Assembly (NCBI GenBank): GCA_963402885.1
Contig: OY727095.1
Coordinates: 16,621,001 to 16,685,000, forward strand
Direction: 5' to 3'
DNA length: 64,000 nucleotides
Source of the DNA: Antedon bifida
Taxonomy: Eukaryota; Echinodermata; Crinoidea; Comatulida; Antedonidae
Part shown: positions 30,552 through 56,098 of the stretch, in pieces
How positions within the stretch are numbered: position 1 is the stretch's first letter
How the letters are laid out: each line of letters begins with the position of its first letter
Translations under genes and position numbers: made by a program
Notes under the pieces: generated by a model
Seen by the model: only the letters and a program-made list of their open reading frames with translations
The model's database searches: none
Told to the model about the DNA's origin: nothing

Positions 30552-30598
30552 TCATTGGGCTAAGTCTGTGACTAAGTCTTCATCATCCTCTGAGAGAT
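30552..30598 (-). CDS. Candidate last exon: acidic C-terminal tail
   Basis: Read in the frame handed over by the previous exon, it gives DLSEDDEDLVTDLAQ and a TGA at 30554-30552. The acceptor region is TTTGTAGAG, with AG at two adjacent places. The second AG (exon from 30598) keeps the frame; the first (exon from 30600) would give a different short tail and an early stop. An AATAAA word lies 3 nt past the stop on the minus strand (30548-30543), a plausible polyadenylation signal. This is the least certain exon of the model. Confidence 0.4.
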
Positions 30599-31244
30599 CT
30601 CTACAAATGAAAAACAGTATCAATCAATTTAGTATACCAGTTATCATGATTATTGTGGAAATTGTAATATTTTTTTAAGATTATGAATAATGAATATAAA
30701 AACACCACAATATTTTCCAATGTAATAAATTCAATAGATTAGAATCATAATCATTGTTGAAATCATAATAATTTTTTGAATATGATCGCAGTATAATTCA
30801 TGAAACGCCACAAAATCATTTCCAATTTCTTGTAATAAATTCAGTAGATAGCATTCTTATCATAATTACTGTTTTAAGATTATGAATAAAAATTCATGAA
30901 AAACCACAAAATCATTTAGTAATAAAATAGTAATAAAAGTAATAAATTCAGCATTGTTATTGTTTAATAATAATTGCTTGAATATGATTATAAAATTAAT
31001 TCAATTCAACAATTTTCTATCTATAATCAGCTTTTAGAAACAACTACAAAAAACTACTAACTCTAATTATTTTATTCCTATAATATTAATCTACATTATT
31101 ATATTCTTTGTTTTATAAATCCTACATTTTAGAGTAATATCCTCAATATCACCAACTTCTATGTCATTATATTCATATAATTTTTCTTTTTTTAAACTTT
31201 TTTTTATGTTTTTCTCCCATTCTTGTATAATATTTTTAATTTAC

Positions 31245-31295
31245 CTTCACTTTGTTCAAATTGGTGACTTGATGATGCTGCCTCATTTCTTCTCA
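31245..31295 (-). CDS. Linker exon (17 codons, phase 1-1)
   Basis: A 51-nt exon between CGATAG and GTAAAT. It encodes a polar stretch, RRNEAASSSHQFEQSE, linking the second DED unit to the acidic tail. A second AG lies 7 nt upstream, but using it breaks the frame. Length and phase match the other exons of the gene. The shortness limits confidence. Confidence 0.45.
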
Positions 31296-31468
31296 CTATC
31301 GCCTACAAATAATCATTTAATGTAAATAATCAACTTTAATAAATTTAAAAAAAACCAGATATTATTAATTTGAATCAAATTACAATTACTGAAACTGTTT
31401 AAAAATGAAAGATTCAATAACTTTACAAATAACTTAATACAAAACAAAGAATATATGCATACCATTAC

Positions 31469-32008
31469 CAAGTAGTATGTTACTTGCTATTGTGCTAAGA
31501 CGACCTGCAAAAATCTGTATTTTGTCTAAATCATCAGATAAATATTGCTTAAACTCCAGATGGAGAACTGCATCCCATACATTGGAGGAGTAATATTTTG
31601 ACAATTGATAGTAAGCAGTAACATTACGTAATGCATCTGGGTCAACTTGTTTCAGGGCCTTTAACAGTCGCTTTCTGTAAGGTGACAACTTGGTTCTATC
31701 ATCAGTATAATTCAGAATGTTGTTGTCTGTCATATACTTTGATACAAGATCTTTGGCCTTTTGGATTTCAGATGTATTTGTAATCTCTAACAGCAAGTTA
31801 ACATCCATTGGTGAGATGAAACCGTTGTCTTCAAGTGCATTGAGCAAGTCATTTGCATTAAAATCTTTATTTGTAATGTCACTGACATCCAACTTATCAA
31901 ATAGTAGGAACCTTAACCAATGGTATCTATCACCATCAAAGCACCTACTGAGACCAGCTTTTAGGTCTCGAAAACTGTTCAAAGATTCAAAATATGCCTT
32001 TGTGTTTC
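31469..32008 (-). CDS. Death-effector-like domain 2 with helical extension (exon)
   Basis: A 540-nt exon with acceptor TTATTTGCAG and donor GTAATG, phase 1 at both ends. The first half reads like a DED: WLRFLLFDKLDVSDI, ANDLLNALEDNGFISPMDVN and LLLEITNTSEIQKAKDLVSKY, matching the DED order LKFLC..I, LF..L...G.+...N and L...L. The second half starts LSPYRKRLLKALKQVDPDA and is all-helical, ending IQIFAGRLSTIASNILLG. The exon is paralogous over its whole length to the first exon at 55555-56077, including the SP.RKRLLKAL turn and the ILLG end at the donor. DEDs assemble caspase-8/FADD/FLIP-type complexes. The extension is not a domain I recognise. Confidence 0.75.
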
Positions 32009-32209
32009 CTGCAAATAAAATTACAGAAAAGTACTGAAATATGAAAAGCTTTATTTGTCAGGTATCATAATAAAATAACAATAGAAATTCTTCTTAAATA
32101 TAAACAACAATAACACACACACACACATTTATTGCACAAATTATTTGTGTCTTTTGTTTGCTTTTATGTGTGTGTAATTCTTAAATTGTTTAATACAGTA
32201 TATATAATG

Positions 32210-32455
32210 TGAGGCGTGTTTCGCAGTGTCTTGGACGTTGGACTACTGATCGTGAGACCAAGGTTCAAATCCAACTCTCGCCGCATTGCTTGTATCCGTA
32301 GGCAAAGATACTAAATATTACGTTTGCCTCTCTCCACCCAGGTGTATAAATGGGTACCCGGTTAGATCAAGACACAACTTTGCGCTGATTACTAGCTGCA
32401 TTATGGAAGCATGTTTCCATACGCGTTTGATCGAAGAAAAATGACTGGGGTAATA
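32210..32455 (+). repeat. tRNA-derived SINE, plus strand, in an intron
   Basis: The head resembles a tRNA gene: an A-box-like part near 32223-32245 and a B box GGTTCAAATCC at 32262-32272, about 40 nt apart. The tail has CTCTCCACCCAGGTGTATAA and ATGGGTACC, words shared with the SINE at 36.9 kb. The intron orientation is antisense to the gene. It is not a functional tRNA. Confidence 0.75.
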
Positions 32456-32785
32456 ATGTTCGGCACATTGAGAGCTTGCTTATATAAGAATGAACTATTA
32501 TCATTATTATTATTATATAATATTTATTTGAAAGTATGTGAAATTTATATTAAGGTGTTTGTAAAAAAATCCCCCAATTTAAATTTTTTGGCTGCTATGG
32601 ATTTTTATTTGTTTTGTATATTTTATGTTTAAAGATTGAAATTAAATAAAGATACCAGGAGATACAGTATCATTATTGTTTCCTCCAATTCTGAAAAAAA
32701 AACCAGTTTGAGACCAATTTGTAAATATTAAATTTGCTTTTATTTTCTCTCTCCACTTATTTTCCAACATATTTCAATCAATTAC

Positions 32786-32824
32786 CTTGATCCGTTTCTC
32801 TTCCTTTTCTTGGCCCACTTTTGT
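32786..32824 (-). CDS. Linker exon (13 codons, phase 1-1)
   Basis: A 39-nt exon between acceptor TTTTATTTGCAG and donor GTAATT, encoding KSGPRKGRETDQ. It bridges the ubiquitin exon and the second DED exon in frame. The boundary of the family A copy 3 element (32841) lies only about 17 nt upstream of the acceptor, so the element's end is nearly part of the splice site. Confidence 0.5.
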
Positions 32825-32840
32825 CTGCAAATAAAATAAA

Positions 32841-33721
32841 AACTAGAATTAAATTATATAATTAGGAGTATATGCTTTATTTTTATGTACAGTGTAGCAA
32901 ACGTGAAACTACGTGACACACCTCATCTTATAATTTGTTGGTATGATGACATTAACAAAATAAACTCAAAGATGACAATTTCAAAAGATAGTGAATTAAT
33001 TGAGAAAGCATATCGAGTCCAAATAAACAAGATCTGGTCTTTTTAATGTAATAATCTATGACGAAAGAAAAAATTCACGTTTAAAAATGCCTTTAAAATA
33101 ATTTTATGCAGTTTTTGCAATTAATGTGCGCATTTTGTCATTTTTAATCTGCTTTTATAGCATTATTTTAGATCAGAATTGACTAAAATGTGGTGAATGT
33201 ACTAAGGAGGGTGAGTAGAATGTGATTTGTATAAACAATTAGTAATTTCTTAAGTATTGTCTTAAGTAATTTTTTGAAACAAATTGCCTATTTCATGCTC
33301 TAAATTGATAAAAATGTAATTTTCAGCTTTTTAAATTTTTAACGTGCAATTTCTCGCGCATGACACTGGGTATGTGTGCGTTTTTATTTGCTAATATTTT
33401 TACCCTTCACTATGTGTAGTGAATTTTATTGATATCATATGACAAGTTATGGAGATATGATTGATAATGTGATTTCACAAAATGGCGTATAAATGACGTC
33501 ACGGATGAGTGATCACGCTGAAAAGCTTATTAGGATTAACTTAAATTGTTTGAAAGACCAGGGAGATGTAAAATTTTACATCTCCCTGGAAAGACATTGT
33601 GAAATTTTTGTCATCATTGACATTTAACTTTGTTACACAAAATAGTGTAGTGAAAGAAGAAGAATAACAAAGATTTCATACAAAAACAATAGATGATCAT
33701 TTTATTCTAAATGATAACCTA
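32841..33721. mobile_element. Hairpin-ended element family A, copy 3 (degraded)
   Basis: Aligns by eye with the family A copies at 1.6 and 3.8 kb: TATTTTTATGTACAGTGTAG, TGCGCATTTTGTCATTTTTA, AAAATGGCGTATAAATGACG and GTCACGGATGAGTGATCACG. It ends in the family hairpin with two changes (33690-33721). The 5' palindrome is eroded and the middle part shortened. A 32-bp palindrome has inserted at 33558. Confidence 0.7.
33558..33589. mobile_element. 32-bp perfect palindrome inserted with a 5-bp target duplication
   Basis: The arms are CCAGGGAGATGTAAAA and its exact inverse, with no loop. The flanks are AAAGA on both sides (33553-33557 and 33590-33594). The other family A copies have one AAAGA and no palindrome at this place, so the insertion is directly visible by comparison. 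Confidence 0.8.
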
Positions 33722-33743
33722 ATTATTTTTTTCCGCTCTACAC

Positions 33744-34372
33744 GATATCACAGCTAATAGCAGCATGTTGTAACAATGTATAGATTATCAATAATGATTC
33801 TGATAGTACTACTACTGGTAAGAGGAATGAAGATATCACAGCTAATACCAATAGAAGCCTGTTGTAACAATGTATAGATTATCAATAATGATCTGATAGT
33901 ACTATATACTGGTAAGAGGAATGAAGATATCACAGCTAATAGCAGCATGTTGTAACAATGTATAGATTATCAATAATGATTCTGATAGTACTACTACTGG
34001 TAAGAGGAATGAAGATATCACAGCTAATAGCAGCATGTTGTAACAATGTATAGATTATCAATAATGATTCTGATAGTACTACTACTGGTAAGGGGATTGA
34101 AGATATCACAGCTAATAGCAGCATGTTGTAACAATGTATAGATTATCAATAATGATTCTGATAGTACTACTACTGGTAAGAGAAATGAAGATATCACAGC
34201 TAATAGCAGCATGTTGTAACAATGTATAGATTATCAATAATGATTCTGATAGTACTACTACTGGTAAGAGGAATGAAGATATCACAGCTAATAGCAGCAT
34301 GTTGTAACAATGTATAGATTATCTATAATGATTCTGATAGTACTACTACTGGTAAGAGGGATGAAATTATCA
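33744..34372. repeat. 88-bp satellite, about seven units
   Basis: The unit starts GATATCACAGCTAATAGCAG and includes CATGTTGTAACAATGTATAG, ATTATCAATAATGATTCTGA and TAGTACTACTACTGGTAAGA. Units are nearly identical. The 62-64-codon frames on the minus strand recur every 88 bp and are translations of the repeat. Confidence 0.95.
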
Positions 34373-34987
34373 CAACAGGAGAAACCATATATTATGGACT
34401 GTCTAGAATATTAGGTACCCTTGTGACAGATTGCACTCCCTATAATATAACACTAATAACTATCTATTATAGGTGAAACAATATATTATGGACTGTCTAG
34501 AATATTAGGTACCCCTGTGACAGATTGCACCCCCTATAATATAATAGTAATAACTATCTATTATAGGGGAAACAATATATTATGGACTGTCTAGAATATT
34601 AGGTACCCTTGTGAGAGATTGCACCCCCTATAATATAACAGTAATAACTATCTATTATAGGTGAAACAATATATTATGGACTGTCTAGAATATTAGGTAC
34701 CCTTGTGACAGATTGCACCCCCTATAATATAATAGTAATAACTATCTATTATAGGGGAAACAATATATTATGGACTGTCTAGAATATTAGGTACCCTTGT
34801 GACAGATTGCACCCCCTATAATATAACAGTAATAACTATCTATTATAGGTGAAACAATATATTATGGACTGTCTAGAATATTAGGTACCCTTGTGAGAGA
34901 TTTCACCCCCTATAATATAACAGTAATAACTATCTATTACAGGGGAAACAATATATTATGGACTGTCTAGAATATTAGGTATCCTTG
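34373..34987. repeat. 94-bp satellite, block 1
   Basis: The unit reads GGTGAAACAATATATTATGG, ACTGTCTAGAATATTAGGTA, CCCTTGTGACAGATTGCACC, CCCTATAATATAACAGTAAT and AACTATCTATTATA. Unit starts at 34472, 34566, 34660, 34754, 34848 and 34942 are exactly 94 bp apart. The block is interrupted at 34987 by a transposon. Confidence 0.95.
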
Positions 34988-35618
34988 ACCCCATTTACAC
35001 TTACGATTTGGGTCGGCCCTGGGTCGGCAATTGATAAGTGTAAATACTCCAAAAAGTTAGGCCGGCCCTGGGCCGGACGCAGATCTGGGCCACTTCTCCA
35101 GGTAGGTTCAGGAGCGGCTTTTACGTTTGGGCCGGCTTACGCAGTGAACCGTGAACAACGTTTGACCTTTTTATGAGGTTGTTGTTATGACTATCCGACA
35201 TTCTCAGTACATACCTTCCTCCTTTTCGGGCTACAATTTGTTTTCTTCATCATTTATATAGTTAAATTTATTTTCAGACATCATCTTTCAATAAAGTATT
35301 CCTCCGCTTGTTTCGCATATACATAAAATACAGCCATATTATTATATATAAAACAGTGGGGTTCATTTTGTTTTTAATGGGACAAAAAACAACAATACAG
35401 TATCAATATAAAACGGTCGGTTCGTGCGGAGAGTTGAATTGACGATTGAGAGAGAAAAATGTAAACAAACTGTACTTCGTATCCCAGCATGCAATGGTAC
35501 TTCCGATAAAATTATTTACGACCAGTAATCTGCGTCGCTAGTGTAAACGCTCTGGGGCCGGCCTAAAAGGTAAATATTTGCAACCGGCCCTGGACCCAAA
35601 CGTAAGTGTAAATGGGGT
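34988..35618. mobile_element. 631-bp TIR element inside the satellite
   Basis: The ends ACCCCATTTACACTTACG and CGTAAGTGTAAATGGGGT are perfect inverses, and more GGGTC/GGCCGGCCC pairing follows inside. CCTTG flanks both sides (34983-34987 and 35619-35623) and occurs once in uninterrupted satellite units, so it is a 5-bp target duplication. The 63-codon frame at its left side has no recognisable product. The superfamily is unassigned. Confidence 0.85.
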
Positions 35619-35954: not shown

Positions 35955-36069
35955 TAGGCATGTTAAGGTGCATATTTTAGGCAAATCCTTCAAATTGTGA
36001 TAATATTTTGAAACTTTGCACAGTTATTCATTAGGGTGTCAAAAACATGAAATGGAAGGGTTGCACAAA

Positions 36070-36640
36070 ATTTGGTCAGGGGAAAGCCGCCATTTTGGAT
36101 TTCAAAATGGCGGACCCCAAATTTTCACTTTTCAGGTATATCTCTGCTAAAAAGGCACCTAGAGTTCTGATTTTAGGTGCAAATTATATGGTAGTGGGGT
36201 CACCAAACATATTGGTATAACTAACATTTTGATTGCATGGCGGCCATGTTTGATTTCAAAATGGCGGACCCCAAATTTTCACTTTTCAGGTATATCTCTG
36301 CTAAAAAGGCACCTAGAGTTCTGATTTTAGGTGCAAATTATATGGTAGTGGGGTCACCAAACATATTGGTATAACTAACAATTTGATTGCATGGCGGCCA
36401 TGTTTGATTTCAAAATGGCGGACCCCAAATTTTCACTTTTCAGGTATATCTCTGCTAAAAAGGCACCTAGAGTTCTGATTTTAGGTGCAAATTATAATGG
36501 TAGTGGGGTCACCAAACATATTGGTATAACTAACATTTTGATTGCATGGCGGCCATGTTGGATTTCAAAATGGCGGACTTCAAATTTTCACTTTTCAGGT
36601 ATATCTCTGCTAAAGAGGCACCTAGAGTTCTGATTTTAGG
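36070..36640. repeat. Tandem of about 155 bp, left arm of the foldback element
   Basis: About 3.7 units with AAAATGGCGGACCCCAAATT, TTCACTTTTCAGGTATATCT, CTGCTAAAAAGGCACCTAGA and GGGGTCACCAAACATATTGG. The inverted counterpart is at 38800-39545. Frames of 80-115 codons here are repeat translations. Confidence 0.9.
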
Positions 36641-36762
36641 TGCAAATGATATGGTAATGGGTAACTTCTTTGATTGCATTGCCGCCGCCGGCCATTTTGA
36701 ACGTAGCTCAAACTGTACTGGCTTTACACTATTTGTTTATGTTCATAATTACATGCATTTAA

Positions 36763-37775
36763 CACAGACACTTATTGTAGGTCACATTTTCCCTGGAAAC
36801 CACACAGCTCTGTACATCGTAAATCACTCTTTCTGCATTTACAGCGTCCAAGATCACAGTCGGTGTGTCCAAAGCGAATTAAAACCTTTGTGACATCTGA
36901 GATGTGGAGCACTGTGGCGCAGTGGTTAGAGCATTGGACTTGCAATAAAGAGGTTGCTGGTTCAAGCCCGGTCGGTCACTGCAGTGTTGAGTCCTTAAGC
37001 AAGATTCTTTATCCACATTGTTCCTCCCCACCCGGATGATAGAAATGGGTACCGGTATGTAAAAAGTACTGGGAAGGTAAATCAGACTCGTTTGTGCAGG
37101 AGGAGTGGCGTACCCCCACAAACATACACACTTAGTGGAGTCTGGCTCAAACGCTAAAGAAATGGAGATGGGCACCACGGCCATTATCATTAGCTTAGGT
37201 CTCGACACTTTACCTTACAGACAATGACATCCTATCGAAAACTGAAGTCATTCATGGCATCTTTTTCCAAGTCGGGTTAAATTTAGCTTTACCTTTTCCT
37301 TGAACAGATGAAGTTGTATCACAACGGCTAAAGGAATGAAAGAACAAGTAAGCGGCTGATGCTTGTGGTCCAAGAGAAGAAACAATCTCGTGTATTGGGA
37401 TGTGCTTCCCCACTCCAAACTCGATCCAAAGCTCGTGGATCCTAGGTATTCTGTGGAAAGCTGACAATGCAATAACAATAACATCACTGTCTACAGTCTT
37501 GACAAGAATGCGCGGAAAAATGTCAGCGGCATGTTTAACATGAACAAACATACATTCATCTGCCTCTGTGTTGCATGGCATCAGCAGTTGTATATTTACA
37601 GACTGGTTTGTTACAGCTCTGTCTCCTAGAGACCCTACAAACATTCCGTGATTTGTGTCAACTTCGATCAGTGACACGACTAGATTTGTTTTTCGATAGA
37701 TAAATGACAGTTTAAAGTCTGGTACGCGTTCAAACCGCGTTTCTGGTGTAAGGAGGGTCGTTAAAGCCAGCGGGA
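36763..37775 (-). pseudogene. Transposon-associated protein relic, left arm copy
   Basis: Minus-strand counterpart of the right-arm relic. A 206-codon frame (37872-37252) reads EADECMFVHVKHAADIFPRI, VKTVDSDVIVIAL, HEIVSSLG and FFHSFSRCDTTSSVQGKGK. This pattern (EAD.RM..H, ..TVD.DV.V.A, H......LG, F...GCDT.S...GKGK) belongs to an uncharacterised family found in many copies in marine invertebrate and fish genomes, with a PIN-like acidic layout. It is then interrupted by the SINE. The Cys-rich end (GCCKCRKSDLRC pattern) is left at about 36890-36763. It is broken and not functional. Confidence 0.6.
36902..37200 (+). repeat. tRNA-derived SINE in the left arm of the foldback element
   Basis: The tRNA-like head TGGCGCAGTGGTTAGAGCAT has a B box GGTTCAAGCCC at 36959-36969. 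A body with GAAATGGGTACCGG and a 3' part with CATACACACTTAGTGGAGTC follow. It has no counterpart in the right arm, so it arrived after the arms were formed or replaced part of one arm. Confidence 0.8.
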
Positions 37776-38760
37776 GCATGCCCAACAATTGGACCACATT
37801 TTTTAGATTTGATGACAACAAATCAGAGTTGTTTTCATTTATTGTAACTGAAGTAGTAGAGAACATTGACACAAATCACGGAATGTTTGTAGGGTCTTTG
37901 GGAGACAGAGCTGTAACAAACCAGTCTGTAAATATACAACCGCTGATGCAATGTAACATAGAAGAGGCAGATGAACGTATGTTTGTTCATGTTAAACTTG
38001 CCGCTGAAATTTTCCACGCATTGTCAAGACTGTACACAGTGATGTTGTTGTCAGCTTTCCACAGAATACCTGGCATCCACAAGCTTCTGATCGAGTTTGG
38101 AGTGGGGAAGCACTTGAAGTACATCCCAATACACGAGATTGTTTCTTCTCTTGGATCACAAGCATCAGCCGCTTACTTGTTCTTTCATACCATTAGCGGT
38201 TGTGATAGAACTTCTGTTTAAGGAAAAGGTAAAGCTACATTTGACGAGACTTTGAAAAAGATGCCATGTATTACTCCAGTTTTTGAGAGGATGTCATTGT
38301 CTGTAGGGCATGTTAGTGAAACAGACACAGATTATCTAGAACAGTTTGTTGTAAGTATATCTACTGCAGAACATTTAATGATGCAATACGATATCTTTTT
38401 ACAACAAGAGAAAGACTATTGAAAATATCCCCCAACATCTGCGGCATTAAGAGAACATGTGAAACGGAAGCCAGGAAGTGGTACGACTGTCTAGATGCAT
38501 TCAGGGTTGGACAGGACCCAGCGAACTGGGGATAGAGGAAGGGCGGCAACAAATTTAGTCCAGCTTGGAGTTCATTGCTTGGAGAACTTTCAGATGTCAC
38601 AAAGGTTTTAATTCGCTTTGGACACACCGACTGTGATCTTGGATGCTGTAAATGCAGAAAGAGTGATTTACGATGTACAGAGCTGTGTGGTTTCCAGGGA
38701 AAATGTGACCTACAATAAGTGTCTGTGTTAAATGCATGTAATTATGAACATAAACAAATA
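37776..38760 (+). pseudogene. Transposon-associated protein relic, right arm copy
   Basis: The longer of the two mirror copies. The plus frame from 37778 reads DDNKSELFSFIVTEVVENID, NIEEADERMFVHVKLAAEI, a short deletion where the left arm has the TVDSDV strand, then HEIVSSLGSQASAAYLFFHT and GCDRT. A stop at 38219-38221 is followed by more of the family in shifted frames: LEQFVV, then PTSAALREHVKRKPGS, NKFSPAWSSL and a Cys-rich tail DLGCCKCRKSDLRCTELCGF near 38637-38700. The family is known from genome annotation as an uncharacterised, repeat-associated protein. No transposase catalytic core was recognised. Confidence 0.6.
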
Positions 38761-38799
38761 GTGTAAAGCCAGTACGGGTTGAGCTACATTCAAAATGGC

Positions 38800-39545
38800 C
38801 GCCATGCAATCAATGACGTTATACTAATATGTTTGTTGACCTCAATATTATATTATACTTTGTAGGCCTACCTAAAATTATAACTGTAGGTACCGCACTG
38901 AAACATTTTGAGTTCGCCATTTTGAAATTCAAAATGACCGCCATGCAATAAAAATGTCAGTTAAATACCAATATGTTTGGTTACCCATTACCATATAATT
39001 GGCACCTAAAATCAGAACTCTGTACCTTTTTAGCAGAGATACCTGAAAAGTAACAATTTGAAGTCCGCCATTTTGAAATCCAAAATGGCCGCCGTGCAAT
39101 CAAAATGTTAGTTATACCAATATGTTTGGTGACCCCATTAACATATAATTTGCACCTAAAATCAGAACTCTAGGTGCCTTTTTAGCAGAGATATACCTGA
39201 AAAAAGGAAATTTGAAATCCCCCATTTTGAAATCCAACATGGCCGCCATGGAATCAAAATGTTAGTTATACCAGTATGTTTGGTGACCCCACTACCATAT
39301 AATTTGCACCTAAAATCAGAACTCTAGGTGCCTCTTTAGCAGAGAAATACCTAAAAAGTGAAAATTTGAAGTCCGCCATTTTGAAATCCAAAATGGCCGC
39401 CATGCAATTAAAATGTTAGTTATACCAATATGTTGGGTGACCCCATTACCATATAATTTGCACCTAAATTCAGAACTCTAGGTGCCTATTTAGCAGAGAT
39501 ATACCTGAAAAGTGAACAATTTGGGTCCGCCATTTTGAAATCCAA
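38800..39545. repeat. Tandem of about 155 bp, right arm of the foldback element
   Basis: About four and a half units, inverse of those at 36070-36640, more diverged from one another than the left-arm set. Confidence 0.9.
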
Positions 39546-41135: not shown

Positions 41136-41373
41136 TGTCTAGACTATTAGGTATTAGGTACTAGGTCTTGGCAGGTCTTGGTATTTAGGAGGACCCGTTT
41201 ATACGTCCATAAGATGTGATAATTGCCATTGAAAAAATATATATCTAATCTAATGTGGTCAGCAACATATAATTTTTTTTAAATTTTAAGATTGTTAATT
41301 TTAAATTTAATTGTTATTTTATTAGCATCATAACAAAGTAGATAATGGAGTATCTCTTTTAAGATATACATAC

Positions 41374-41853
41374 CACCAGCTCTGCAACGGAGTACCAAAT
41401 TAAGGGTTGACGGATTCTGAATGTTGTAGTCAGACAGTGTTTGATGATCTTTAAGCTGGTTTCCAGCAAAGATAATTTGTTGCTGATCTGGTGGAATTCC
41501 CAGTTTATCTTGAATCTTAGCTTTCACATTCTCAATGGTGTTTGATGGTTCAACCTCAAGTGTGATTTCTTTTCCAGTGAGTGTTTTAACAAAAATCTCC
41601 ATGCCACCTAGGATAGGGAACAGCAAGTGAAGAGTTGACTTATCCTGGACGTTGTAGTATGACAGTGTTCGGTAATTTTCAAGCTGCTTTCCAGCCAAGA
41701 TAAGTCGATAACTATCTGGTGGAATACCCTCTTTATCCTGAATCTTAGCTTTCACATTCTCAATGGTGTCTGATGCTTCAACCTCAAGTATGATGTTCTT
41801 TCGAGTTACTGTTTGCAACAAAATCTCCATGCCACCTCTCGGCACAAAAGGCT
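41374..41853 (-). CDS. Two degenerate ubiquitin domains in tandem (exon)
   Basis: A 480-nt exon with acceptor TCTATCATCAG and donor GTATGT, phase 1 at both ends. It codes two 76-78-residue ubiquitin folds. Domain 1 starts [11 protein letters not shown] and keeps [21 protein letters not shown]44, K48 and a GG, but has Q at 6 and D at 63. Domain 2 starts [20 protein letters not shown] and keeps K6, K11, K27, K29, K33 and I44, but has N at 48, N at 63 and N at 68, ending LRCRAGG. Both thus lack K63, and only domain 1 keeps K48. The reading frame continues past the second GG through the splice donor, so this is not a polyubiquitin gene but ubiquitin-like modules inside a larger protein. Confidence 0.85.
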
Positions 41854-43275: not shown

Positions 43276-43344
43276 GGGGGCACACGCGATCATAGAGAGA
43301 AAATGCATTTTATGGTGTTCGAGATCACTAACGCAGTCTGATTC

Positions 43345-43945
43345 ATCTGTAAAGGGTCTTGCACACCTGTTAGTTCACAGTTCCGAACTTCAGGGTGGCG
43401 AAAGTATTTTTCCCAAAGACTTTCTCTGAAAATCCGAGAGAGGGCGTCCTCTTTCGTCCCATTGTGTAGGGGGGAGCATTATGCATCTCTCTGCGCTCGC
43501 CTTTTGAATGAACATTTTAATATGCTGCGCTTTCCGAATGAATTGCCGATTCTTACAAAGGGAGGATATCGCCTTGTTGTAACTACGAATACGCCTTTTT
43601 CACGAAACGGAAGACATCTTCGATCGATGACGAACAATGCCGTGCAACGAAGCGTAACCAACAGAAATAACATAACGTTTTCAGGACACCATGTTAATTA
43701 AAAAATCGTAACTCTTCAACGGAGGATCGTATAAGAAAAAAAATTACTGTAAAACGTTCTTAAAAGATTTTCCTATATCACTGTGTGATTTTTTCACTGC
43801 TTAAAATCTATCGAAAAAAACACAACAGTGTATAAGCATAGGCTGAAAATGCTATGTTATTTCTGTTGGTTAAGCTTTGTTGCACGGCATTGTTTGTCAT
43901 CGATCGAAGATGTCTTCCGTTTCGTGAAAAAGGCGTATTGGTCCG
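43345..43945. mobile_element. Fold-back segment with arms of about 90 bp and a Harbinger-like end
   Basis: 43587-43675 (ACGAATACGCCTTTTTCACG ... ACAGAAATAACATAA) is inverted at 43852-43939, separated by about 175 bp. Near 43350 is AAAGGGTCTTGCACACCTGTTAG, similar to the terminus of the 16449 MITE. The matching outer right end is not found. The frame at 43462-43701 overlaps the left arm and is not called. Confidence 0.55.
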
Positions 43946-44639
43946 CGGCGGCGTGAGCTGAGCCAACTTCTAAAAATAGAAGAATTGTAACTTTAATTAA
44001 TTCGTACAAAGGGACACCGCCCGGGTAGTGCGTAACTGTACACGCTTTGGCCCTTGTAACTTGATACAGTCTAGATATCGACGCTTGGACCACAATGAAA
44101 ATAAGTTCGAATCGTTCACCTTTGTTCCCGGCCTCAAACCCCTCCCCCGCTCATTGCGCACGCGCCTAATATTCCTCCTCTACTACTACTACTAGGCCTA
44201 GTACTAGTACCAGATAGAGAGTACTACTACTCTAGACTATTTATATCGGTTATCCGTGGGTCTCTTATTTTATAGCAAAAATATCGCAGTATAGCCTAAA
44301 TACAGTATTATTATTATACAGTAATAGTAGGTTAAATGATGTTGCACCTTCTTTTTTTTGGACATGATGAATAGTGTGTGTCACGACGGTGGAGGCAGCA
44401 AGCAAATCAAACTTGTTTACACGCATATTAACCGATAGTTCGCACACGCGCGCGCTGTTGGATGTATCATATCTGTACAACAACAGCACGTGTGCTTTAT
44501 TTTGTCTAGACAATTCCAAATATTAAACGTGTCTGTTGAGCTATCGTATTTCGGTAATAAAACTGACTGTTATTGTCAGGCGTGTATCTCTAAATCTTCT
44601 CAACATAACATTGTATAACTTTATCAGAAGATTGACCTC
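43946..44639. other. Intron sequence, no feature recognised
   Basis: Contains a CTACTACTACTACTAGGCCT tract near 44180 and an 84-codon minus-strand frame without motif. Confidence 0.4.
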
Positions 44640-44880
44640 TATCTGAAGATGTCAAAATAAGGTTTTCGGTCGCGTCCGAGTTGCGCAGCGTAAGTTAGGC
44701 GCAATTTTATGAATTTTAAAGATTGATCATAGATTAAAAACCAAAAGTCATTTTGTATTGAAACTTGGTGAAAATTTAAGTCATATCAAGCGCAAACTTT
44801 CTATAAATGACAGGTTGCGCAGAAAGTTACGCGTGCACGCGCGTTTAAAATTTCAAATAGTGCACCATTTTAAAACTGCA
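44640..44880 (-). mobile_element. Fragment of a family C-like hairpin element, reversed
   Basis: GCGCAAACTTTCTATAAATG, CAGAAAGTTACGCGTGCACG and CGCGTTTAAAATTTC are close to the reverse of 6520-6600 in the family C element. The terminal hairpins are not preserved. Confidence 0.5.
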
Positions 44881-45339
44881 TTCGACATATTAAAAATAAA
44901 TTAAAAAGAAATAAATATTATACATTACATGGTTAAACCATGGACGTATGGTCTTATAACGAACACTATAGGCCTACCAAGCAGCGTGTTGCGAACATGT
45001 GCATGGGGAGGGCCATAAGAAAGCTTTACATTTCACACATGCATTGTATACGGTCAAACCTTACCCGCCGCTGAAAAAGGGGCCGTTTTGACCTGGTTTG
45101 CCATGTTTATGATATTTCGTGTACTAATCGAGTCGAATGCAGTTTTAATGATGCACTCTTGGCGTTCCATATCTGTTCGTTTGTTCGTGTCGACACATTC
45201 AGTATTAAATGGCGATATTTCTGTATTTTTTCAATCAATTGCTTGCTTGCGATAAGGTATGGTTTAAAGATCTTTGGCTATGTTAGGCTTCGGGATGTTA
45301 TACAACACTTAGGCCTAGGCTAGGCTAGGCTAGGGGTCG

Positions 45340-45435
45340 TCGGTTTCGTGTTATGGGTCGTCCAATTCTAGGTCGTCCAATTCGAGGTCGCCCGGGTCGT
45401 TGGGGTCGTCCAATTCGAGGTCGTCGCTTTCTACA
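45340..45435. repeat. GGTCGTCCAATTCGAGG word array
   Basis: Six variants of GGTCGTCCAATTCGAGGTCG in about 95 bp, preceded by TAGGCTAGGCTAGG. It is a third short-word array of the style seen at 12.6 and 16.4 kb. Confidence 0.6.
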
Positions 45436-45748
45436 CACCCGTAGCAGCTCGATCAAGTCGTAATAAATTAAGGCCATCAATAGTATGTTTATAGAAGATC
45501 AAATTTCTGTAGAAGATCTTTTTGGAATAGACTGAACAAGATAATATGTTCAATATAACATAAACCCAGTCAGAGGAATACCATTAAAATGACAGTTTTC
45601 ATGAGGGTCATAATAACCTAACTCGTTTTTTCTTTTCCCGAGTTGCACCAACCTTTGAGGACTTTACACAAGTTTCAGATTGTTTGGAGCAATTTCTAAA
45701 TCCATGAGTTACTTTTACTATGTCTAACATCTACCAACTGCAAGTGGC

Positions 45749-46750
45749 GTGATCAATACTTTGAATAAACTGAAGGCACGGCTATGGGATCTCCAGGAGC
45801 ACGAACATCTAGCACTCTACTCCGCCAACAAGCACCAAAACTTTGGCTTTGACACTTTTATCATCTGGCAGCACAACAAGGTGGACTTAGATAGTTTTCT
45901 AATACACCTCAACTCTCAACATTGCATTCACCATGGAAGAGGAAAACGACCACAGTTTACCATTTCTTGACGTATTTGTCACAAAGGAACCGGAGGGCAC
46001 TCTGTCCCACAAAGTATATCGCAAACCCACCCACAGACAGATATTTACATAAGCGATCTTTCCACCATCCGTCAACAAAGAAATCAGTTTGTAAAACTCT
46101 TATCAAAAGAGCGCACATCATCAGCGACAAGAAGTGTCTCCGACAAGAAATACATCATGTCAACAAAGCATTGGAACTCAATGGTTACAACAGGAAGGAC
46201 TTCAAGTTATCGTCAACCAACAACAGCGATCCTGCAGAGTTCAGAAAGTCTGTATGTTTACCATATTTGGGACAGCTTTCTCATCGTATCCAGCGAGTAC
46301 TACAAAACGCCGACATAAAGTATTTCATAGTGCAGTCAACAAGTTGTCACAGTGTCTTCAAACACACAATGACAAACCATCTAAACACAGCCAACCTGGT
46401 GTATACTGTATCCCATGTGAATGTGAAAAGGTATACATTGGGAAAACTGAACACGACCTTCAAACCAGGCTCAAGAACATCAAGACCATGCCAGAAGAGG
46501 GGAGCAAGACAAATCATCAATAAATATGCATTCTCACAAACAACAACAACGAGTTAATTGGAAAGATGCTGAAGTAATTGCTACCGTTCCTTCTTGGCAT
46601 TCCAGACCAAACCAGGGAAGCTATTGAAATCTACAAACACAACACTGTTCATCAAGATATTGGATTTGTTATCAGTGACATCTGGCTATCTTTATTCAAC
46701 AAGAATCTTCATCGAGAGTAAACCATGCCATAGTTTCTGGCCATTTTACA
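45749..46750 (+). pseudogene. Penelope-like retroelement relic (RT C-terminus and GIY-YIG nuclease)
   Basis: Across shifting plus-strand frames the order is: FGFDTFIIWQHNKVDLDSFL (degenerate RT catalytic region, family YVDDT), the SLPFLDV/YRKPTH block near 45955-46030, HKRSFHHPSTKKSVCKTLIK, then the GIY-YIG nuclease start GVYCIPCECEKVYIGKTEHD (about 46408-46467) and the conserved tail NWKDAEVIATVPSWHSR, EIYKHNT and DIGFVISDIWLSLFNKNLHR. Several frameshifts make it inactive. The GIY-YIG nuclease cuts target DNA for integration in this class. A degenerate hammerhead-like word follows at 47041. It lies in the gene's second-largest gap, on the opposite strand. Confidence 0.8.
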
Positions 46751-47040
46751 TTTCACAACCCTGTCTGGACACATGGTCTATGTTTGGCCAGTCTACACCA
46801 AACTTTGAGACAATGCTATTGTTTTTAGCTTGTCTCACCCTGCTTTTCACACCTATCAGAAACAATGCTCTTCTATAGCCAAGTTTTCATTCTCTATTGT
46901 TCATGAGAAACAATGCTTTGCTATAGCTAGTTTCAATCCCTCCCACTGTGTGAACTGTGTGAATTGTTTCTGGCTTTCACACCAGGCCCACCCTTTTCCA
47001 CTTATATTCCAAGTTTCCTGGACTTTCTGCATTCTCACTC

Positions 47041-47075
47041 CTAAGGACGATCAAAGCATATTGATCGAAACGTCG
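47041..47075 (+). other. Degenerate hammerhead-like motif downstream of the Penelope relic
   Basis: CTAAGGA, then a perfect 7-bp stem (CGATCAA/TTGATCG), then AAACGTCG. The order is that of a hammerhead core, CTGATGA-stem II-GAAA, with two substitutions in the first box. Penelope-like elements are known to carry hammerheads in their terminal repeats. If real, this is a dead copy. Confidence 0.3.
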
Positions 47076-47181
47076 AGAAACTCAACAGTTCTTTTCAGAA
47101 GTAATATACGTGGTGTACCGCAAACTTTATATCAACATTTGATTTCGCCATTCAAACCTTCAAACAATACATATCCCAGGT

Positions 47182-48460
47182 TCATAACAGCGCACAGTTA
47201 TACAGTCTTGCCAGCTTACTGAACAACTCGGCTATCAGGGTTTCACTCGATTTCAAACAAAACAAATTTTCTTTCCAGCTGATATTGAAAGCAGATCTCA
47301 GCATCCTGGTGTAGCAACCATCACATGATTTCCTCATTTGTTTGGTAATTGTCCAGGTTTCTGCTCCATAAAGGAGTACACTTTCAACTGTCACGGCTTG
47401 GAACAAGCATTGTTTGATCTTCCATGGGAGATTTGACTTCCATATTTTAGAAAGGGCATTGGAGGATTTCCAGGCAAGTGCCTTGCGTACACTGATATCA
47501 TGACCCGAGATATTTAAAGCGGTCACAGATTCAACTTTAAGAGCAGCTTCCTTGACTTTCATTAAGAGTTTCTGTGCTTGGTCTATAGTGTTTGAGGTAA
47601 GTCTAAGGGTTTGCCGAGGTTTGATAGTAAAACCCAGTTTTTCCTCCCTACCACAGGTGGCTGTCCTGAGGCAGTAGTAGTTTATTATAAATAAATACAG
47701 AGCAAGAGTATTTCCCTGTAGTACAGCAGTAAGCTTGGTCTCTCCATCAGGGGTAATGACTTTGACTTGTGTGTTACAGTAGGTATCTTCAATGGCATCA
47801 ATGATGATTTTTGGGATTCCATAGGCTGCGAGTATTTTCAGCATCTTTCCTCTGTATGGTATCGAATGATTATTAAGTAATTTCTTCAATGATTCGTCGA
47901 AGGGCTAGAATATGTGATACAGTTGATCTGCCCTCCCTGAATCCATTTTGATTTGTCTTCAGTAGATTGTCAATGTGTGGTCTAAAGCCTGTTCAAGATC
48001 ATCATGTTGTATGTCTTTGCAACAAGAGAATTTAGACAGATGCCTCTATAGTTGCCAGCCTGACTTGGGTCTCCTGGTGTTGGTACAGGGATCAGATTTA
48101 GCACAGACCACTGGTCAGGTTTCTGTCTCCCTATTAATGCCCTATTGCAAAACTCAAGGATCATGGCATCAATGTCACATTTGGTAAGAAGTTCAGGAGG
48201 GATGCAGTCATCTCCAAAGCTTTTTCCATTCTTTATGGACTTTTTGGCTTTCTGGTACTCCTCATTATCAAACTCATCACACCTTATTGGGAGCTCTTCA
48301 AAGATTGGTGATATTTCTTCATTTTCCTTTGTCACCATTGGTGGATTTCCTAACAGTTGCTTGAAGTGAGTGTACCCAGTTCTCAATTCTTTCTTCCTTG
48401 CTCTTTCCTTTCAGTTGTCCTCTTTACCTTTTTCTCCCACCGACTTCATTTATTAGTAAT
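47182..48460 (-). pseudogene. LINE reverse-transcriptase fragment
   Basis: Two minus frames in order. 48386-47982 has YQKAKKSIKNGKSFGDDCIP, CNRALIGRQKPDQWSVLNLI and GNYRGICLNSLVAKTYN. 47889-47182 has YGIPKIIIDAIEDTYCNTQV, VLQGNTLALYLFIIN, then IDQAQKLLMKVKEAALKVES and ESVLLYGAETWTITKQM, followed by CYTRMLRSAFNISW. These are fingers, palm and thumb of a non-LTR RT of the kind annotated widely as craniofacial/endonuclease-RT in invertebrates, probably RTE-like. The catalytic FADD segment between the glycine-rich LGFTI part and IDQAQ is missing, and about 90 nt lie out of frame between the two ORFs. Inactive. Confidence 0.8.
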
Positions 48461-51440: not shown

Positions 51441-51441
51441 T

Positions 51442-51463: not shown

Positions 51464-51848
51464 TGTGGGGTTGTTTTTTACCCATTTAGTCGGCCGTTTT
51501 GGTTTTAACAAAGTAACATTTTTTTGCATTTCTCTGGAACCAGAGATCGTAGAAAAAATTTTGGTACCAAAGTACTCACAATATGTATGTTGACGAGCTA
51601 TTTGATTACTATAATTGGTCAGTTTAATACCACGGCCATTACAGATGCATAGTGCGTTTAAAAAAAATTACCTTGACACTATGTAAACCTGGTTACAACT
51701 TGTTAGAAGAAAAGTTGTTACTTCTTTTTGCAGATGTAAAAAAAGGTATAATTAATGCTTTTATTCAGGAACCTGGAAACTAACCAGTTTCTTCTTAAAA
51801 AGAACATACGACATTTGTTTTTAATTTAAACTAAAAATAATTTCTTAC

Positions 51849-52235
51849 CTATTTTATTCATCTTTCTCATTGCAAATTTAACATCCTGTTCCTCAATTTT
51901 AACTTTAAGCAATTCATGTTGAAATTCTTGCTGGAATTCCTCTGCAACTATTTTCACTAAATCTTTTTGTAGCGTTTTATTGCAATATGTTTTCCAGAGG
52001 TTTTCTAATGCTTCAGAGTCATACACAGTTAGATATAACACTAAAGATCCTGCTCCTATTTGCTCAATACGAATAGTCTTAAAATACGTAGTAAGTCGTT
52101 TCATAATATTGTAACAATGTGTGGGAGCTTTCTTTTGTCTTGCTAGGTTGTTGAAGAAAACTTCCAGAGCATGTGGTTTGTCCTCGTCTTCATATGACAA
52201 AAAACTTTGGTTTGTAACCAATAATAATTCCGCAC
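51849..52235 (-). CDS. TRADD-N-like domain 2 (exon)
   Basis: A 387-nt exon with acceptor TCTCTTAAAG and donor GTAAGA, phase 1 at both ends. It begins with a beta-strand-like GAELLLVTNQSFLSY, then helices (ALEVFFNNLARQKKAPTHCY), then IRIEQIGAGSLVLYLTVYDS and ALENLWKTYCNKTLQKDLVK, ending KVKIEEQDVKFAMRKMNKI. The order strand-helix-strand with the G-S-L-V core, followed by an amphipathic ..L...Y....L...L helix, follows the TRADD N-terminal fold (L-K-I-H ... L-I-V-Q-L ... F-L-R-A-Y). TRADD-N binds TRAF2 in vertebrates. The same domain type is often found after death-fold domains in invertebrates. Called by eye; a profile search would decide. It is paralogous to the exon at 53680-54024. Confidence 0.65.
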
Positions 52236-52324
52236 CTTTAAGAGATAATTTTAAATATTTACATTTTTTTTCATTTATTTTTCATGCATGTTTTGATGAA
52301 GACTACCATGTTTATTAAAAAGGC

Positions 52325-53475
52325 ATGCGAAACATTGACACTAATGCTAATTTATTCATTATCAAATTCTGTTGACATATAGTGCCCTAAAATGTACTTT
52401 TGTTTGTTCTAAAACCCTAATTTAGAAGGCCTAGGCCTACCTCCTAAATTAGCTTTACTAGGCGTAGGCCCCGGCGGAGCCGATCCACCACTCATGCGAG
52501 GCTCCATTTCAAACTGCCCGATTCGTGACAAATAAATTATTTTCTCAATAGAGTTCTGCGGTGTGACGTCACAACGATAGATGGCGCTGCGTGGTTGCTA
52601 GCGCAACCAAAAATGCGTTAAACGCTATATGTTGATAAACACTATAGATCTGTGTTTCTATGAAATTATGTATCTTAGCTTAGATTTTTTAAAACTTAAA
52701 CAGTCGCTGAAGAATAAATAGATTATTAAAAACAACTATTTAGTGACCTTTTGAAATTTTAGTTTGTTTTTATTGAAAGTTACTAAGTTTTAAAATGACT
52801 ACTTTAATAAGCCTATTCCAAACCATTGGTGACCTTGGAGTCACTGAGGCAGTTGAAAGCAATTTTTGGTTGGCTAACAACCATGCAGCGCCACCTACCG
52901 TCCATGCAGCGCCACCTACCATCGTGACGTCAGCACCGCAGAACTCTATATTACTAATTTAATTCTGCTATACTAAAGAAACTAACAAATTTTAGAAGTA
53001 TAAATTATGAACGATACACAAAATACACACAAAGGGAAATATATTGATAGAAATCATTGCACTAGGCTCTGTATCCCAGACAACGTTGCCAGGCTAATGT
53101 CTGTATTGCCAGAAAAAAGAAAAAAACCTGTTGATTTGGAGATTTTAAATCATAATTTACTCGATGAATAACCGTTTATACGGTAATAATTTTATCTTTA
53201 ACAAATTCTAAATACGTTTCTGCAAAAGCACAAGCATTTTATAAAAAAATACTCCATAGATTTCAAAAGTTATAGCCAAAAAACTGCAAATTGTCCATTG
53301 GAGGGATAGGAATATATTCACAAAGTGGATTTTCAAATGGGCTTACCCCAAAAGGGCGAATTTATATTTTGTAACAATATACCCTCTAGTAACACATAAT
53401 AGCCCCCAAAACATCATTTTAAAATGAAAAAAAATCGAAAATCCATTTTAGGTCCATTAGTTAAGGATGGTGTGT
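52325..53475. repeat. Duplicated intron segment, copy 1 (with a MITE insert)
   Basis: Matches 54700-55535: AGTGCCCTAAAATGTACTT, GAAGGCCTAGGCCTACCTCC, GATCCACCACTCATGCGAGG, TTGTCCATTGGAGGGATAGG and CATCATTTTAAAATG. Together with the two neighbouring TRADD-N-like exons it forms a tandem duplication of about 2 kb. Confidence 0.85.
52548..52949. mobile_element. 402-bp MITE with 25-bp TIRs, empty site preserved in the paralogue
   Basis: The ends ATAGAGTTCTGCGGTGTGAC(GTCAC) and the inverse of ATAGAGTTCTGCGGTGCTGA(CGTCAC) differ by a short indel. The paralogous copy at about 54993-55003 reads TCTCATATTAC with no insert, exactly where this copy has the element, so the insertion came after the duplication. 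AGATGGCGCTGCG near the left and CATGCAGCGCCACCTACC near the right extend the inverse relation. Confidence 0.85.
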
Positions 53476-53679
53476 AGCCATGGTCAGAAAATGATGAAAA
53501 CTATTTATCTTAAAAAATATTATTACTTTGACATTTCTACAAAATGATCTGTGATGGGAATTAAAAGGTGCCTTAAAAAGTTTAATGTTAATGTTAATTA
53601 ATTTGTTTGCAACTTAATTGATTCAAATGTTCATTAATTAAATAATTGATAATACTGTAATTCTGCAATAAGCAGTCAC

Positions 53680-54024
53680 CTTTTTTGTGTTTTTTGTCAT
53701 AAATTATTGTCGTCCATTTATCTAAAAACTGTTGTTGACTTCCAGTAAAAAAAACTGTTGCTAAACCTTCAAGAAGTGCTCCATTGGACTGTAAATCTTT
53801 TAATTTTGACAAGGCAGACTGACCATCTGTATCTAGGGAAAACACTAGTGATGTATTTGGAATCACTGCAGTTTTCATGTCCCTTAAACAGAGAGATGGG
53901 TATACGCTTTTAAAATGTTCACTAATCTTTTTGAACATTTCTTCACAATATTCTTCAACTTCCCGAACCCAGCGTAATGGTACACCATCTGGATTAAATT
54001 CGACATATACTTCAATTTCCACAC
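53680..54024 (-). CDS. TRADD-N-like domain 1 (exon)
   Basis: A 345-nt exon with acceptor TTTTTTACAG and donor GTGACT, phase 1 at both ends. The donor is weaker than the others. It reads GVEIEVYVEFNPDGVPLRWV, helix EVEEYCEEMFKKISEHFKSV, then MKTAVIPNTSLVFSLDTDGQ, SALSKLKDLQSNGALLEGLA and TVFFTG. The alternation and the S-L-V-F core are the same as in the exon at 51849-52235, so both carry one domain. It follows directly after the first DED exon. Together with the flanking intron it belongs to a tandem duplication, which explains the doubled domain. Confidence 0.65.
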
Positions 54025-54699
54025 CTGTAAAAAAGAAAATATTAGAACTTTGTTGTAAATCATTTTTAAATCCATTGTAAAGTAATAATACAGTAGGTTC
54101 TGTAAACTTTGAAACTCAAACTAAGTTTTGACAGTTTTCAGAAGGGGCGTCTTAAAGAAACAAATGACAGCCAACATAAGGCACAACCTAATATTTTCTG
54201 AAGAACAGCAAACATATTTAACTTCAGACTGTAAAAAATAATCAAATAAAACTTCTATTGGAATAACCTATCACTAATTTGTACAATATATAGATGTAAA
54301 TAAAGTAAGTAAAGTAGTGGATAGACAGTCATGGGTCATACGTATGTATCTTTTCAACAAACAACGGTATTACTGTAAAACTACCATTGTAAATGTTAAA
54401 TCTTCTTAAAATGGACATGAAATGGACTTTCGATTTTCAAGAAATTCACACATGTTATTTAAATGTATCAAATTAACACAAGTCCATACAAATAAAAACA
54501 AAATGTATAGTATTTTGAGAAAAAACGAAATTTTAAGATACCTTTGTAAATTAGCGAAAATTACTCACGCCATTGCAATGTTCTATTTCAACGGCCGTCG
54601 GGAGCATCTATATTCACGACGTCACATATACACACGACCACACGATATCAAGAGCGTGTATGCCGCCCGATAGTCCGTGAATGATCGACGGCCTGGAAA

Positions 54700-55535
54700 G
54701 ATACGCGAAGCGTTGACAATAATACTAATTTATAAAATATATAATGTTGTTGAAATATAGTGCCCTAAAATGTACTTTGTTCTAAAACCCGAATTTAGAA
54801 GGCCTAGGCCTACCTCCCAAACCTTTACTAGGCCTAGGCCCCAGCGCGCGGAGTCGATCCACCACCCACCCATGCGAGGCTCCGTTTTATGTGAATCCAA
54901 AGCGATATCAACAACTTGCTACTCATTGTCAAGCCAAAGTAAAATATGAATCAAATTTGTTTTCGAACTGTCTGATTCGTGACAAATAAATTATCATCTC
55001 ATATTACTAATTTAATTCTGCTAAACTAAAAACTAAAGAAACTAACACATTTTAGCAGTATAAATTACGAACGATATACAAAATACACGAACGGGAAAAA
55101 TATGGATACGCATCATTGCACACGGCGCTGTATCCCGGACAACGTTGCCAGGCTAACGTCGGTATTGCCAGAAAAAAACCGTTGATTTGGAGATTTTAAA
55201 TCGTCATTTACTCGGTGAATAACCGTTATACGGTAATAATTTTATCTAAAAAAATTCTAAATATGTTTCTGCAAAAGCACAAGCATTTTTTAGAAAATAC
55301 TCCATATATTTCAAGAGTTATAGCCAAAAAACTGCAAATTGTCCATTGGAGGGATAGGAATATATTCGCAAAGTGACGTCACCCGCGAATTTTTTTGATT
55401 TTCAAATGGGGCTTTCCCCAAAAGGGCGAATTTATATTTTGTAACAATATACATTCTAGCAACACCTAATAGCCTCCAAAACATCATTCTAAAATGAAAA
55501 AAATCGAAAATCCATTTCAGGTCCATTTTAATGAA
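54700..55535. repeat. Duplicated intron segment, copy 2 (no MITE)
   Basis: Partner of 52325-53475. It has about 75 bp not present in copy 1 (after GAGGCTCCG, around 54890-54965) and lacks the 402-bp MITE. Confidence 0.85.
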
Positions 55536-55554
55536 AAGGAACAGCTAAGATTAC

Positions 55555-56077
55555 CAAGTAGTATGACTTTTGCACGTTCTGTAAGAAGACCTGCAAACTC
55601 TTCTATTTTGGATCGTTTATCTTCTAACAGTAATTCTCTTTCCAGATGACAAACAACATCCCAAATATTTTTAAACTCAAAGGCTCTCAGGTTGTAGTAA
55701 GAAATAATGCTATTAAATGTAACTTTTCCAACTTCAATTAAGGCCTTCAACAGTCGTTTTCGAAGTGGTGAAAATGTTTTTGTATCAGTATATACAATAC
55801 CTCTTTCTTCCATATACTGACTTACAAGATCTATGGCCTCCTGTATATCAGAGAGTTTGGCAACCTCCAACAGAAGACAAACGTTATCAGCTTTAATATA
55901 ACCTTTTTCTTTAAGCACATTAAACAAATCATTTGCAATAAAATCTGCTGTAATGTATCCTTCAGGTATTTGATCCAGTAGGCAGAATTTCAACCAATTA
56001 TATTTTTCGCCTATATAATGTCTCCCGAGGAAAGATTTCAACTTTTCAAACTCTATGTTTCTTTCAGAGTGTGCCAT
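55555..56077 (-). CDS. Start exon: death-effector-like domain 1 with helical extension
   Basis: The ATG at 56077 has a strong context (GAAAATGG) and an in-frame stop 9-12 nt upstream, within an exon that starts after TTTTTGCAG at 56098; so translation starts here and an earlier 5' UTR exon is likely. 174 codons plus one base end at the donor GTAATC. The DED pattern: FEKLKSFLGRHYIGEKYNWL, KFCLLDQIPEGYITADFI, NDLFNVLKEKGYIKADNVC, LLLEVAKLSDIQEAIDLVSQ. The extension begins FSPLRKRLLKALIEVGKV, reminiscent of the start of the second DED in caspase-8-like proteins, and goes on as helices to RAKVILLG. The whole exon is paralogous to 31469-32008. A role in death-domain or NF-kappaB signalling complexes is inferred from the domain only. 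Confidence 0.75.
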
Positions 56078-56098
56078 TTTCCAGCATTATAATGTTTT

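Follow-up and report, generated by a model that had tools for sequence, protein, structure and literature searches.

A candidate crinoid gene joining tandem DED, TRADD-N-like and ubiquitin-like modules as a variant of a published adaptor class

Marine invertebrates carry expansions of DED plus TRADD-N proteins, with 18-23 copies of the DEDD2 clade in echinoderms, and fusions of DEDD2-clade TRADD-N domains to polyubiquitin and TRIM domains have been described from them; retrotransposition has been put forward as one way in which new fusions arise (Kaur et al. 2021, PMC8195603; here and below as given in its main-text sections). A feather-star NCOA6 protein is cited in the same work. Here we describe a candidate gene on the minus strand of a 64,000-nucleotide stretch of the genome of the crinoid Antedon bifida (C8:16621001-16685000, hereafter the window). 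With a probability of about 0.72, it would be one gene of a large DED/TRADD-N-like adaptor family that is fused to a polyubiquitin-derived exon, giving the order tandem DED, TRADD-N, TRADD-N and two ubiquitin-like modules. The exons were rebuilt from the sequence, and relatives were sought in a large protein collection and then in the species' own genome (315.6 Mb, 27 contigs).

AG/GT borders are present on six exons, namely E1, E2, E3, the ubiquitin exon, a linker exon and E5 (Table 1), and the five internal ones among them are divisible by three and in phase 1-1. All six have relatives: E1-E3 in the Antedon mediterranea protein P0001 and in a paralogous locus on contig C7, the ubiquitin exon on C7, and the linker and E5 in the A. 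mediterranea proteins P0003 and P0004 (all annotated relatives, called Antedon proteins below, are from this species). The first-pass annotation had joined eight exons into an 803-residue frame with six symmetric internal exons. Six of the eight and five of the symmetric ones (345, 387, 480, 39 and 540 nucleotides) stand, but the last two, of 51 and 47 nucleotides, are not supported, and the predicted length becomes 777 residues with E5 joined or 609 with the ubiquitin exon as the terminal one. If unspliced, the frame of the ubiquitin exon stays open to its own stop at 41281-41279. With E1-E3 as the query (418 residues) and candidate proteins of 230-731 residues covered, the single match at E<=1 was P0001 of Antedon mediterranea (638 residues), which aligned over the full query with 64% identity.

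On the evidence of the DNA, the view that E1, E2, E3 and the ubiquitin exon are one gene appears well supported, because C7 repeats their order and because the changes between the window and C7 bear the mark of mild purifying selection. The C7 relatives of E1, E2 and E3 follow one another on the minus strand, and 3.2 kb further on the same strand lies a ubiquitin exon with the same AG acceptor directly before AGCCTTTTGT, the same EPFV leader and the same PILGG hinge, which continues into a third repeat and then reaches a stop. This rules out that the ubiquitin exon is private to the window. The C7 locus is also the closer counterpart of P0001, at 84-87% identity. Between the window and C7, the ratio of nonsynonymous to synonymous substitution rates (dN/dS) is 0.61 for E1, 0.71 for E2, 0.39 for E3, and 0.56 and 0.55 for the first and second ubiquitin repeats. 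The five units pooled depart from a ratio of 1 (P=5e-6), as do the two ubiquitin repeats pooled (P=0.019), and the synonymous rate dS varies little from exon to exon (0.32-0.48), which would be the pattern of a single block, or of one fast-evolving gene that was copied whole. The earlier claim that death-fold, TRADD-N-like and ubiquitin modules share a gene is thus borne out by the same order on C7. A block at 33725-33140 that is also shared with C7 was discarded, since it has other copies in the window and hence is a repeat.

The ubiquitin profile PF00240 matches the ubiquitin exon in two stretches, and 51 and 59 of the first 72 residues of the two repeats are identical to canonical ubiquitin. 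The hinge between the repeats reads FPILGG in place of LRLRGG. The repeats end in FPILGG and in RCRAG followed by G or D, such that the conjugatable LRLRGG end is absent from both; neither repeat keeps K63, and the second also lacks K48. With two divergent repeats and splice borders on both sides, the exon is not a stand-alone array of near-identical cleavable repeats. A decayed third repeat beside it was not found (19 and 54 of 200 shuffles were equally good).

E1 and E5 had been annotated as DED-like, and a death fold is supported, but each of them seems to comprise two DEDs in tandem. Both stay under the curated cut-off of the Pfam DED profile, whereas P0001 exceeds it (59.9 versus 35.9 bits). 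Residues 12-148 of P0001 align to the tandem DED of caspase-8 (5-147, E=4.6e-4), and for this reason E1 is probably a tandem DED; E5 resembles E1 over nearly its whole length. Caspase-8 was found neither by E1 or E5 of the window queried alone nor by the DED profile A6, and a PDB search with A6 gave nothing relevant. A search with the profile A2 matched a COR-type protein.

The assignment of E2 and E3 to TRADD-N is probable, its basis being a motif and the neighbouring domains, not a profile. TRADD-N domains have a tiny residue and Ser (or Cys) at the turn between beta2 and beta3 (PMC8195603). At this turn, located by alignment position and not by structure, E3 has GAGS, E2 has NTS (in which T is not tiny), the C7 copy of E2 has NAS, and a copy at C8:27.88 Mb, described below, has KC with the alternative Cys. 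An adjacent DED, which is usual in invertebrate TRADD-N expansions, stands before E2 in the window, on C7 and in P0001. An hhalign comparison of the two TRADD-N-like domains gave a probability of 54% and an E of 1.3e-4 from two rows each, a PDB search with the E3 profile gave nothing relevant, and a search of the own genome with E3 gave 62 matches (E<=0.01). Of the domains called earlier, ubiquitin is a strong profile match, DED in E1 and E5 a weak one below the cut-off, and TRADD-N, whose motif and adjacent DED fit, has no Pfam match.

Several observations weigh against the reading of a single adaptor gene with ubiquitin modules. Pfam gives no TRADD-N or NCOA6 match for E2, E3, P0001, the C7 copies or the frame at C8:27.88 Mb, the last of which has weak similarity to E2 (30% over 57 residues). 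AlphaFold2 models of P0001 (8 rows) and E3 (2 rows) reached a mean predicted local distance difference test score of 44.8 and 41.7, respectively, with helices only, and were unusable. Taken singly, E2 (P=0.25) and the two ubiquitin repeats (P=0.11 and P=0.06) do not lie significantly below a dN/dS of 1. The first window repeat compared with the second gives a near-neutral 0.88, and a core-versus-surface test was borderline (3/28 versus 31/116, P=0.056). P0001 continues from its E1-E3 part into a C-terminal DED pair and has no ubiquitin. Moreover, E1-E3 and their flanks have recently been duplicated, the window from 42629 to at least 61456 corresponding to C8:14753383-14771823 with 0.52% substitutions outside exons. 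The copy at C8:14.76 Mb stops 776 nucleotides short of the ubiquitin exon, has no ubiquitin match among the 69 listed in a ubiquitin search of the own genome, and shows no sign of exon constraint (6/1257 exon sites versus 84/16151 others, P=0.52). A P0002-type gene lies downstream of it.

The copy without a ubiquitin exon and P0001 with its DED pair indicate that the E1-E3 block has different 3' partners, which, together with the symmetric phase-1 exons, supports the modular exon shuffling that had been proposed from the first inspection. In the own genome, E5-type tandem DEDs give at least 151 matches (592 candidates, 150 scored); of the 150 listed, 101 are on C8, 49 of these at 14.0-17.5 Mb, and of the best 50, 37 are there. 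This part of C8 thus holds a large group of tandem-DED exons.

As to whether the linker and E5 belong to the same transcript, the chance is somewhat below even that they are what is left, orphaned, of a former Roc-COR-DED gene at its 3' end, or that they form a gene of their own whose first exon was not found. Among the sequences compared, the linker occurs before this DED only in the COR-type proteins P0003 and P0004, where DKSGPKERKGRETDQ sits immediately before the same tandem DED as E5 of the window, and the surrounding region, with 49 of the listed E5 matches, is rich in such exons. Upstream lies a COR-type gene with a 39-nucleotide linker-like exon of its own, judged by eye, and with a DED exon whose frame runs up to a stop. 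Against an orphaned end stands the fact that E5 is intact and that its similarity to Antedon proteins (76-78%) is on a par with that of another, apparently intact copy at C8:16.614 Mb (73%), a point that is qualified by a dN/dS of 0.79 between E5 and that copy, indistinguishable from 1. That the COR-type gene at C8:16.70 Mb has its 3' end in E5 was considered and rejected, because that gene has a linker-like exon and a DED exon to a stop of its own, although a long-range splice may exist. This neighbour (L023, C8:16694801-16704800) runs from 9441 to 3027 on the minus strand, its linker-like exon being in phase 1-1. That the linker is a chance frame is ruled out, as the Antedon proteins carry it too.

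A longer protein of 777 residues, in the order tandem DED, TRADD-N, TRADD-N, ubiquitin, ubiquitin, linker, tandem DED and GDSEKK, with death-fold nucleators at both ends, is a tentative proposal that we place below even odds. Phase 1 and AG/GT borders would hold at every junction in it. Although both the linker and E5 are intact, a search of the window with 14 Antedon relatives gave no COR-type or P0002-type upstream exon (E<=1e-3). E5 is without the Met that P0005 of Antedon uses as a start (GNTKAYFE versus MADSE), and with this start lost it would need an upstream exon. From the stop of the ubiquitin frame to 39000, a distance of 2.3 kb, there is no AATAAA or ATTAAA (0 versus 3.8 expected, P=0.02), and an AATAAA lies at 31076, about 200 nucleotides after the GDSEKK stop. 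Conversely, an AATAAA at 41323, just before the ubiquitin-frame stop, could end the transcript there. On C7, 27 kb downstream (C7:24965201-24992443) contain no E5-like exon, the 13-residue linker not having been sought there. The linker-E5 pair of Antedon comes after COR-type regions (2 of the 12 sequences compared), and the ubiquitin domain of Pfam is listed in none of the 13 Antedon relatives of E5 (276-877 residues). When ubiquitin was included in the query, a search for homologues was uninformative on ubiquitin-DED fusions, 7168 of 7956 scored sequences being polyubiquitins, with at most 51% coverage in the best 120. The linker and the 540-nucleotide exon of the first-pass annotation are genuine, and its full double-DED protein may exist.

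The acidic tail that had been proposed for this protein is not upheld. An acceptor seven bases upstream of the one chosen then (exon from 31302) leads to ...NILLGDSEKK and a stop; GDSEKK also ends P0003 and P0004, and GNSEKK ends P0006, P0009 and P0010 (five of the 12 Antedon sequences compared). The peptide of the proposed 51-nucleotide exon matches P0002 in 10 of 13 residues (E 0.43), which suggests that the later acceptor served in the past or perhaps still serves at times. After this point P0002 and P0011 continue into a further DED, of which the window keeps a broken trace only, with a stop (30544-30458, E 0.019), just after the last exon of the earlier model; for this reason we take the E5 unit to end, putatively, at 31283.

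That the ubiquitin exon is a decaying polyubiquitin fragment without a coding role would fit the near-neutral ratio between its two repeats, the recent duplicate that holds E1-E3 without it and the lack of ubiquitin in P0001, yet it is improbable in view of the open paralogous C7 exon with the same acceptor, leader and hinge, the constraint on the pooled repeats, and 160 codons free of stops and frameshifts, for which the modelled neutral chance is 0.005 (45 substitutions, indel ratio 0.1; 0.06 to <0.0001 over the settings tried).

Table 1. Predicted coding features of the window (positions count from its first letter).
Feature	Position	Strand	Observations
E1, first coding exon, tandem DED, 175 residues, 523 nt, donor phase 1	55555..56077	-	Pfam DED E=9.7e-6 (below cut-off); 63% to Antedon P0001, 63% to C7
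E2, TRADD-N-like domain 1, 345 nt, phase 1-1	53680..54024	-	61% to Antedon P0001, 63% to C7; Ser motif ...NTSLVF; no Pfam match
E3, TRADD-N-like domain 2, 387 nt, phase 1-1	51849..52235	-	69% to Antedon P0001, 71% to C7; GAGSLVLYL motif; no TRADD-N Pfam match
Ubiquitin exon, leader EPFVPR and two divergent ubiquitin repeats, 480 nt, phase 1-1	41374..41853	-	Pfam ubiquitin 4.6e-52; paralogous exon on C7
Linker exon DKSGPRKGRETDQ, 39 nt, phase 1-1	32786..32824	-	DKSGPKERKGRETDQ directly before the same DED in Antedon P0003/P0004
E5, second tandem DED, candidate part of the same transcript, 540 nt, phase 1-1	31469..32008	-	76-78% to closest Antedon proteins; 46% to E1; Pfam DED 0.0039 (below cut-off)
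E5 unit, corrected 3' terminus of the coding sequence, GDSEKK stop	31283..31302	-	exon joined; same ending in Antedon P0003/P0004
51-nt exon of the first-pass annotation, later acceptor, other frame	31245..31295	-	resembles P0002; not supported as ending
Acidic last exon of the first-pass annotation, 47 nt	30552..30598	-	by eye similar to the first residues of the following DED exon in P0011 (...EDLSMDDF), an exon that is broken just downstream

Long frames that by eye resemble transposable elements lie in the large introns and the flank (window 36000-38800, 43300-48400 and 18700-22600). A 34-nucleotide stretch at 51164-51131, 88% identical to part of the C7 E3, is perhaps a relic.

A third locus, at C8:27.88 Mb on the plus strand, also speaks for an adaptor family of this kind: it holds in order a DED exon, the TRADD-N-like frame mentioned above and an exon with six ubiquitin repeats. 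Across the window, C7 and this locus, RLRGG is lost at seven of the eight inter-ubiquitin junctions; the sole junction that keeps it, the second on C7, has no Met after it. Four of the five junctions at C8:27.88 Mb resemble one another, with RSG or RSS ahead of Met, and a single change may have been copied among them. In the canonical array on C11, all seven junctions read LRLRGGM. Deubiquitinases need the RLRGG sequence at a ubiquitin junction, and on this ground the altered junctions would be uncleavable. In the canonical polyubiquitin genes on C11 and C15 (L007 and L005), the Gly76-Met1 step is spelled GGTATG at all 16 matched junctions (7 and 9, respectively). GGTATG would constitute a latent phase-1 donor (G/GTATG), matching in phase the exon borders of this family, and polyubiquitin may in this way be pre-adapted as an adaptor tail. 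As a putative donor, GGTATG stands at the 3' border of the ubiquitin exon both in the window and at C8:27.88 Mb. It is nonetheless doubtful that polyubiquitin has been converted time and again in this crinoid lineage into a permanent, uncleavable chain tail of death-fold adaptors, with the window encoding a 777-residue protein whose linear diubiquitin lies between two terminal tandem DEDs.

Other ubiquitin-like frames were seen in the genome. On the plus strand of C11:28163000-28172900 (L025), a CARD frame (1533-1790, Pfam 2e-8), coiled-coil-like frames (by eye) and five divergent ubiquitin-like repeats (5398-7359) are perhaps another candidate fusion of a death fold with ubiquitin-like modules. 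Single ubiquitin-like frames are clustered on C9 and C10 (L011, 846-1136 and 6600-6872; L012, 3339-3599 and 6426-6701); these four end in double Gly, one of them with an additional Arg, unlike most of the fused repeats.

We infer a signalling role for the predicted adaptor, in which the tandem DED would assemble with other DED proteins and the TRADD-N domains would bind, for example, MATH domains of the TRAF type. A linear diubiquitin built into the protein, with FPILGG and not LRLRGG at its hinge, should resist deubiquitinases and might then offer signalling proteins that bind ubiquitin a permanent place to dock on the assembled platform. The transcript would either end in the ubiquitin exon (609 residues) or continue into the linker and the second tandem DED (777 residues), and both forms fit this core.

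On death-fold platforms, ubiquitin chains are normally attached by ligases and can be taken off again. If true, chains that are encoded in cis without a cleavage site would amount to a natural experiment that asks if a fixed linear chain suffices for signalling, and they would reveal how a highly conserved protein can enter immune-gene shuffling as raw material. New here are the crinoid case, the replicate locus and the loss of RLRGG at most inter-ubiquitin junctions in three loci, the first two of which add to the published TRADD-N expansions. The exon order, the phases, the replication on C7 and the mild purifying selection can be read from sequence alone, and from these the gene looks like a real, fast-evolving, immune-type adaptor that is a variant of a published class and not a new kind of protein. 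It had been noted at the outset that no protein with this domain order was described. This holds at most for the exact order, but not for the class, since TRADD-N-polyubiquitin fusions are published (PMC8195603). No further paper on this combination was noticed among the open-licence papers listed, and a crinoid case may be present in the supplementary tables of that study.

Compared with known systems, the window exon has head-to-tail ubiquitin repeats in common with polyubiquitin of the UBB/UBC type, but differs in having two repeats only, in the missing RLRGG at the hinge and in its fusion to other domains. To judge from P0001 of Antedon, the gene would share with caspase-8 the succession of two DEDs, whereas Pfam finds among the window exons no counterpart of the caspase domain that caspase-8 carries. 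The Antedon COR-DED proteins P0003 and P0004 have the same linker, the same tandem DED and the same GDSEKK end as the E5 unit, with a COR-type N-terminal part where the window has TRADD-N and ubiquitin. P0001 has the tandem DED and the two TRADD-N-like domains of E1-E3, and differs from the window gene in its terminal DED pair and its lack of ubiquitin. Sections 8, 10, 11 and 13 of PMC8195603 name no crinoid fusion, no TRADD-N pair with two ubiquitins, no tandem DED after ubiquitin and no uncleavable hinge. It is nevertheless the DEDD2-clade fusions of Kaur et al. that the window resembles, with DED and TRADD-N as the constant part, variable partners, expansion in echinoderms and polyubiquitin as one of the partners.

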